From Rhodobacterales bacterium HKCCE4037 (GTDB lineage: Bacteria > Pseudomonadota > Alphaproteobacteria > Rhodobacterales > Rhodobacteraceae), in contig WVSM01000006.1 of assembly GCA_015689645.1 (NCBI GenBank), positions 186,001 to 250,000 on the forward strand: a stretch of 64,000 nt of DNA, read 5' to 3'. Position numbers and translations under genes: made by a program. Numbering within the stretch: position 1 is the first letter of the stretch; each line of letters begins with the position of its first letter. Positions 58,629 through 59,127 of the stretch are shown piece by piece. A model generated the notes under the pieces. It was not told where the DNA came from and did not search any database. It saw only the letters and a list, made by a program, of their open reading frames with translations.

Positions 58629-59012
58629 TCAGGGCTGGTCCCCGGCCTTCGCGCTCTGGTGCAGATGCAACAGGTCATCGAGCATGGGCGAGATATCTTC
58701 CACGTGTTCGGCGATGACATGGGTCACGCCCGACTCGCGCTGGATGCGGCCCGTCACCCGCAGAAGGCGCCCCGCGATCACCGCGCGACGGAATTTCTGG
58801 TACATCTTCTGCCAGACGATCACGTTGCACACGCCGAACTCATCCTCCAGCGTGATGAAGATCACCCCCTTCGCCGTGCCCGGCCTTTGCCGCACCAGAA
58901 CCAGCCCCGCCACGCAGATCCGCGCATTCTCCGGCGGCAGGTGCAGCAGGTGATGGGGCAGGCAATCGGGCGGCCTGGGCCAATCGGGGGCGTGAATCTC
59001 GGGCTCAGTCAT
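58629..59012 (-). CDS. Orphan OB-fold protein equal to the C-terminus of DnaE2
   Basis: Predicted 127 residues from the ATG at 59012. From about residue 30 it reads like the C-terminal OB domain of the SOS polymerase DnaE2: [33 protein letters not shown] and [20 protein letters not shown]. The PHP, palm, fingers and thumb of DnaE2 are absent; upstream lies a divergent ferredoxin, so this is a stand-alone gene, not the end of a polymerase frame. A GTTC-N7-GTTC SOS box and -10/-35 sit directly upstream, and the transcript would be almost leaderless. It may bind DNA in SOS repair or be a relic kept under LexA. Confidence 0.8.
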
Positions 59013-59014
59013 GA

Positions 59015-59029
59015 GAACAAAGATAGAAC
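59015..59029 (-). promoter_or_regulatory. SOS (LexA) box and promoter of the orphan OB gene
   Basis: On the minus strand GTTC TATCTTT GTTC (59029 to 59015) matches the alphaproteobacterial GTTC-N7-GTTC LexA site. A -10 (TATCTT, 59025-59020) lies inside it and a -35 (TTGCGA, 59047-59042) sits 16 bases upstream, placing the transcript start at or next to the ATG. LexA would cover the promoter. Caution: GAACAAAGAT here also occurs in repeat tails at 51447 and 60278. Confidence 0.65.
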
Positions 59030-59127
59030 AAATGCGCGCAGTCGCAAGCCGGTGCATTCAGGGTGGAAAGCGCGCGCCTGCCGTATTACCTAGCCTTGGA
59101 CGAAAAACGCGCATTCAGGGGCGGATT

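Follow-up and report, generated by a model that had tools for sequence, protein, structure and literature searches.

The window analysed here is a 64,000-nucleotide stretch of the genome of Rhodobacterales bacterium HKCCE4037 (contig WVSM01000006.1), and the gene of interest, P0001, reads on its minus strand from an ATG at 59012-59010 through 127 codons to a stop codon ending at 58629 (Table 1). Its product matches the OB fold in Pfam (PF01336, E 6.8e-11), and among NCBIfam models it fits PRK05672, an error-prone polymerase, best (E 2e-30), covering only profile positions 951-1039 of 1047. By this profile and by the structure described below, it is a C-terminal OB domain of the DnaE2 type that stands alone as a 127-residue protein, as the original prediction had held. 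As an SSB (PF00436) it scores below the family cut-off (E 0.12; 12.9 bits against 26). In a search of the window with full DnaE2, the OB gene alone matched (E 6e-29; next match E 2.0), and the frameshifted dnaE2 pieces that the original prediction had named as a sign of decay do not surround it. Queries with imuA and imuB gave no match below E 0.6 in the window. Upstream and on the opposite strand lies a gene that we take to be 2Fe-2S ferredoxin-like, a name drawn from its sequence and not from a family search; it lies outside the polymerase.

Table 1. Features at the OB locus, in positions of the window.
Feature	Position	Strand	Evidence
Stand-alone DnaE2 OB-domain gene P0001, 127 aa	58629..59012	minus	ORF, profiles, orthologues, dN/dS, AlphaFold2
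SOS (LexA) box GTTCTATCTTTGTTC	59015..59029	minus	sequence; perfect box in 55/59 orthologous loci
-10 element TATCTT, within the 7-base centre of the SOS box	59020..59025	minus	sequence; TATnTT conserved in 55 loci
-35 element TTGCGA, 16 nt upstream of the -10 element	59042..59047	minus	sequence; TTG conserved in 55 loci
Divergent gene, presumably 2Fe-2S ferredoxin-like; conserved neighbour and synteny marker	59128..59451	plus	beside 58/59 OB loci

For structure prediction, AlphaFold2 was given the window protein together with 27 relatives, two of which are the OB parts of full-length DnaE2 (L103 and L104). The model has a mean pLDDT of 82 and a predicted OB topology. Foldseek matched it to many OB folds, and VIA-align superposed it on the OB region of M. 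tuberculosis DnaE1 (7pu7) with a Z of 11.5, an rmsd of 2.5 and 92 aligned positions. PolC was matched as well, and the DnaE1 OB score tied with tRNA synthetases, RPA and many other OB folds; neither method singled out DnaE among them. Across 59 stand-alone OB proteins, a WPRPP-like N-terminal segment occurs in 53, and the C terminus ends in ..QP in 22 and in ..GP in 4. Judging by their sequence, these segments could serve in docking. Two loci whose genomes duplicate others in the set (L142 and L144, duplicating L065 and L061) were removed before the 59-locus counts, and the full-length L103 and L104 were left out of the OB counts.

The SOS box is a perfect GTTC-N7-GTTC that ends two bases before the ATG of the OB gene, placing a LexA-type operator directly at its promoter. 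Boxes of this kind are not scarce: the window holds 3 against 1.8 expected, and the whole genome 112 against 62 for a reversed control pattern. A perfect box is nevertheless present in 55 of the 59 OB loci, all from distinct genomes, within a 150-base zone from -120 to +30 of the start, and the flanks of the same loci hold 2 boxes in 181,590 positions. The box is therefore special because of its position, its number alone being unremarkable, and it is the conserved position and not the count that rules out a chance box. The four loci without a perfect box match seven (L062 and L131), six (L066) or five (L146) of the eight fixed bases. The same short gene is found in 10 of 13 genomes at the genus level, this one included, and the conservation that the original prediction had asked for in relatives thus extends to the gene as well as to its box.

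The promoter that had been read from the window, with a -10 element inside the box and a -35 element 16 bases upstream, is conserved across the 55 loci. The five specified positions of TATnTT within the box have frequencies of 0.82-0.98, and at the same 16-nt spacing the -35 TTG is kept at 0.95 (T), 0.69 (T) and 0.91 (G). An in-frame start codon lies 5' of the box in 39 of the 55 loci, including the window (ATG 59057), and in 16 there is none. Between species, the differences in box-to-start distance are not multiples of three, the box moving by 1-5 nt against the frame, and since its offset varies in this way we take the box region to be non-coding. In 49 of the 55 loci 1-5 nt separate box and start, which together with the conserved TTG at the same spacing supports a leaderless mRNA that would start at or beside the ATG. 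LexA would be expected to bind here, and the OB gene to be induced by damage.

With the OB domain as the query, no second OB copy with an E below 0.2 was found in the genome, which gave the impression of a genome without dnaE2. This impression was wrong, as a full DnaE2 query found a gene (G000:C12:54542-57394) that matches residues 20-976 of a relative's 1119-aa DnaE2 and then stops. In place of a full dnaE2 elsewhere in the genome, which the original prediction had left to be looked for, there is a DnaE2 without exactly the OB domain, so that the two genes appear as the halves of one split polymerase. The OB domain may thus still act in trans, as had been proposed, and probably does so with DnaE2; it does not do so as an extra copy or modulator beside an intact enzyme.

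We read the sequences of 34 of the 35 cores with a full match, that of G007 being matched and lying outside the 34. These cores end 6-81 residues (median 30) past the xHPxxLxR motif; full-length DnaE2 extends 135-249 residues past it, through the OB domain (27 of 31 sequences, those with the motif). All 34 cores keep the aspartates D427, D429, D431 and D578 of the DIDVD and KVD motifs, presumably the catalytic residues of DnaE2. The PHP-Pol3-(HhH)2 core with these aspartates lies in the partner gene (BLAST residues 20-976) and not in the OB gene. A further difference concerns the extreme C terminus: an SRDFH tail closes 30 of the 31 full DnaE2s (e.g. L105), and is found in none of the 34 cores and none of the 59 OB proteins. 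An SOS box (GAAC-N7-GAAC) before the start of the core gene is perfect in 7 of 20 loci, matches 7 of the 8 fixed bases in 12, this genome with its one mismatch among them, and was detected in all but one, L120, whose match began at residue 155. Stops were marked within the core match in G017, G023, G055 and G071; when these loci were read, the frames were open.

To see who carries which half, we compared 80 genomes in a non-random set made up of this genome, 24 relatives and the first 55 of a family draw. An OB-less core occurs in 36 of them, 35 full and one (G089) cut by a contig end, and a stand-alone OB gene in 35, of which 34 are clear and one, in G061, is divergent and was scored positive on a weak match (46%, E 4.4e-26, 115-aa frame). 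The core stops short of the OB domain in 35 of the 80 genomes, this one included, and in the contig-cut G089, so that core and OB domain do not share one polypeptide there. Both halves are present in 34 genomes, the core only in two (G072 and G092), the OB gene only in one (G079) and neither half in 43. The last group comprises 35 genomes with an OB-bearing DnaE2, seven without DnaE2, and G049, where pieces of DnaE2 lie at contig ends. A stand-alone OB gene was found in none of the 35 genomes that have only an OB-bearing DnaE2 and in none of the seven without DnaE2, although two full-DnaE2 genomes gave a weak, partial OB-like extra match (G011, E 1.2e-5; G014, E 1.2e-4). One genome, G050, was scored as OB-bearing from a fragment (residues 390-1119). 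Outside the split count stand G049, with its contig-end pieces and an OB frame of 213 aa, and G021:C2, where core and OB lie at opposite ends of one contig, probably a full dnaE2 gene cut by a contig break.

In three genomes of the same genus (G009-G011; L162, L163 and L107), DnaE2 is divergent and in one piece and both split halves are missing; here the split pair looks to have been replaced by an intact cassette. In the wider family search, 349 of 394 genomes match; 150 matches were listed, each from a different genome, and 149 of these lie in frames of at most 537 aa. Among genomes with a name, the OB gene occurs in Roseicyclus, Planktomarina, Boseongicola, Tropicimonas, Rhodovulum and Dinoroseobacter, among others, with Roseicyclus nearest to the window; Roseicyclus mahoneyensis DSM 16097 is one of these carriers. 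In Dinoroseobacter shibae (G063) the split pair is chromosomal, and a one-piece imuA-imuB-dnaE2 cassette lies in addition on a 126-kb plasmid (L175, G063:C4:58778-63621); the plasmid cassette is named in the part of PMC9426580 consulted. A plasmid search with the OB protein gave, among the matches listed, mainly matches inside annotated error-prone polymerases, and a phage search gave one weak match.

This pattern of occurrence bears on a first alternative, in which the OB gene arose from the split and has since become an independent small SOS-induced protein that binds single-stranded DNA, the clamp or ImuB. Its main support is G079, a genome of 7 contigs and 100% completeness, which carries an SOS-boxed OB gene (G079:C4:2083576-2083938; L145, L208), imuA and imuB. 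No DnaE2 core was found there; the sole match, at 33% identity, is taken for DnaE1. The OB gene can thus occur without the core, either because the core was lost recently or because the OB protein has a role of its own. The WPRPP-like segment and the ..QP or ..GP ends could likewise bind a new partner. The core is, however, missing from just one of the 35 genomes with an OB gene, the OB gene is absent from the seven genomes without DnaE2 and from the three same-genus genomes with a different DnaE2, and the match to SSB is weak. We consider this alternative unlikely. In the converse case, no OB match was found in G072 and G092, both of which have a core and are assembled in about 100 and about 490 contigs.

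The core and the OB gene were compared further with respect to descent and selection. In a tree with 31 full DnaE2s, the 34 cores fall into a single clade (FastTree support 0.931, 944 columns). The 34 stand-alone OB genes likewise cluster apart from the full DnaE2s, though at a support of 0.0 over 87 columns. Core and OB tree distances are correlated (Pearson 0.80, Spearman 0.62; 31 genomes), which may be explained by shared species history alone. As all pairs come from one fission, co-occurrence stands for stable joint retention or absence and not for repeated independent invention, and a Fisher p-value computed for it does not count independent events. The ferredoxin-like gene lies upstream and opposite in 58 of the 59 OB loci at 72-100% identity, and with the same neighbour at nearly every locus the OB gene is inherited in place. 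Its dN/dS has a median of 0.13 and a maximum of 0.20 (45 pairs within the genus), and no stop codon was found in the matched OB part of 14 loci examined; stops were marked within the OB match in G007 in the genus search, and in G161 and G294 among the family matches listed.

Purifying selection of this strength, together with the conservation and the matching partner, bears out the selected function that had been suggested for the lone domain. It also counts against the alternative offered with that suggestion, a degenerate dnaE2 remnant with a chance or relict SOS box. Real remnants do exist outside the family, where at least 8 short OB frames occur among the matches listed for 289 genomes. 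Two of these were read (the L206/L207 pair): G657 has a broken dnaE2 with its OB end in another frame, and G652 an OB remnant alone. In both, the SRDFH or SRDFR tail is still attached and no box adjoins the OB part, the single box in the G657 stretch lying about 2.4 kb upstream. Among the other six, five begin less than 1 kb from a contig start. The gene in the window shows neither relaxed selection nor a broken frame, its box and promoter spacing are conserved (55 of 59 genomes) and its core gene is present, and we regard a remnant as extremely improbable.

We next consider imuA and imuB, the other members of the canonical cassette. In the split genomes, imuB has its own perfect GAAC-N7-GAAC box before the start at all 12 loci (L150-L161), and imuA has one in 19 of 20 regions (L210-L228), the twentieth, at the contig end of this genome, being without imuA. 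In the split genomes examined, the canonical cassette has thus come apart into four genes, core, OB gene, imuA and imuB, each with an SOS box of its own. Matches resembling imuA, at E 0.001 or better, occur in 33 of the 34 genomes that have both halves, those in G061 and G089 being weak. The exception is this genome: its contig breaks off about 27.5 kb from the OB gene, shortly before the place that imuA occupies in relatives. Its imuB is cut by contig ends into two pieces (G000:C12:23-499 and G000:C17:19085-19360). With imuB cut and a contig end at the expected imuA site, the assembly hides part of the mutasome.

Both imuA and imuB are thus present in the split genomes, and no single imuA-imuB-dnaE2 operon is found there. 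In those compared, imuA, core and OB gene are found on separate contigs or at distances of tens of kb or more; imuB is near the core in some, at 0.6 kb and divergent in G059 and at 1.4 kb in G085. For Phaeobacter inhibens, a common operon of imuB and dnaE2 is given in the part of PMC10883770 consulted. Among one-piece cassettes, those of L105, L106 and L109 showed no perfect box near the start of imuA, while L107 and L108 gave no imuA match. Boxes inside the imuA of full cassettes were considered as operators and rejected, as they look like coding coincidences; no operator of a one-piece cassette was thus located. Beside the imu cassette in L109, an ORF (L109:221-955) with MCNLYSQ near its start adjoins a perfect SOS box; it resembles, we assume, an SRAP/YedK-type protein.

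The reading that we favour, and hold to be probable, is that an ancient gene fission gave rise to a DnaE2 made of two polypeptides, with the OB domain acting in trans. The split itself is well supported: the gene, the boxes, the promoter geometry, the complementary truncation, the co-occurrence, the core clade, the purifying selection and the predicted OB fold were all read from sequence. In an ancestor within the Rhodobacteraceae, the cut in dnaE2 would have fallen in the linker that joins the polymerase/(HhH)2 core to the C-terminal OB domain. The two pieces would have been retained at unlinked sites, the core as a protein of about 960-1020 aa whose active site is intact, the OB domain as one of about 125 aa. 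DNA damage leads to cleavage of LexA in the SOS response. As the core, the OB gene, imuA and imuB each have their own LexA box, they are expected to be co-induced by damage, and cleavage would open the four promoters together. At the OB gene, LexA sitting on the -10 element would repress tightly, and a transcript beginning at or near the ATG would be leaderless and could be translated at once. The OB protein would then most likely rejoin the core, either directly or by way of the ImuB scaffold.

The OB domain of one-piece DnaE polymerases is thought to contact the single-stranded template, and the rejoined domain would restore this grip to the DnaE2 core. A counterpoint is that neither half has the SRDFH tail of the full enzyme, which may be a docking site for which the split form has no further use. 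A regulatory role has also been weighed, in which the OB piece holds DnaE2 in check or vies with the OB domain of replicative DnaE1, acting for instance to curb mutagenesis. A separate promoter permits a ratio other than one to one, and there is no other specific support. The core itself lacks the OB domain, which makes the role of a missing part simpler. A competitor would also be of use beside a one-piece DnaE2, yet none of the 35 genomes with only that form has the OB gene; we think such a regulatory role very improbable. Within the reading as a split enzyme, we tentatively suggest a two-subunit C-family polymerase with a dissociable OB subunit under its own LexA promoter, so that processivity or grip could be set apart from the amount of core, and the OB subunit may also serve ImuB or DnaE1.

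The ImuA-ImuB-DnaE2 cassette was reportedly surveyed by Erill et al. in 2006. An SOS-boxed form of it is reported for alpha-proteobacteria in the part of PMC3323433 consulted, and the split genes are SOS-boxed as well. The members of the cassette are thus present here and remain under SOS boxes, but they are scattered and dnaE2 itself is divided. A 2026 polymerase survey (PMC12926913) describes the cassette and DnaE2A, DnaE2B and DnaE2X modules; the terms 'OB domain' and 'OB-fold' do not occur in its main text. A study predicting LexA sites in D. shibae (PMC6473078) names neither dnaE nor imu genes in its main text, and OB terms are absent from the main text of PMC10421592, a paper on the mycobacterial mutasome. 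Timinskas et al. (2013; PMC3919608) recorded several DnaE2 sequences without an OB domain and without a CTD. They may be cores of the kind found here. In the sections consulted that paper makes no mention of a separate OB gene; in the present genomes the absent domain turns up as an SOS-boxed gene of its own. We found no report of a split DnaE2 or of a separate OB gene in the open PMC literature. OB-less DnaE2s were already on record in 2013, and what appears to be new, from sequence, is the separate OB gene and a DnaE2 in two pieces.

The split offers an explanation for the OB-less DnaE2 sequences in surveys, and it suggests that surveys of dnaE2 only would miss a subunit. The role of the OB domain in DnaE2 seems little tested, and the natural split makes that domain removable, titratable and swappable with the catalytic core untouched. 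It would also be a clean case of gene fission in which the halves are kept in step by shared regulation across a large part of a family.

Among known systems, the closest is DnaE2 (ImuC) itself, a C-family polymerase with which the split pair shares the OB type and the core catalytic motifs; the split form differs from the one-piece enzyme in consisting of two polypeptides from unlinked genes and in lacking the SRDFH tail. A mutasome domain that is either fused or separate is also seen in stand-alone ImuB-C and split-ImuB-like proteins, as far as described in the parts of PMC12926913 and PMC6511836 consulted, with another domain and another partner. In cyanobacteria, an intein rejoins the pieces of DnaE. 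This intein-split DnaE, mentioned in the consulted part of PMC3919608, is also a two-piece C-family polymerase; the split DnaE2 is cut at a domain border instead, and the short ends beyond its domains would leave little room for an intein.
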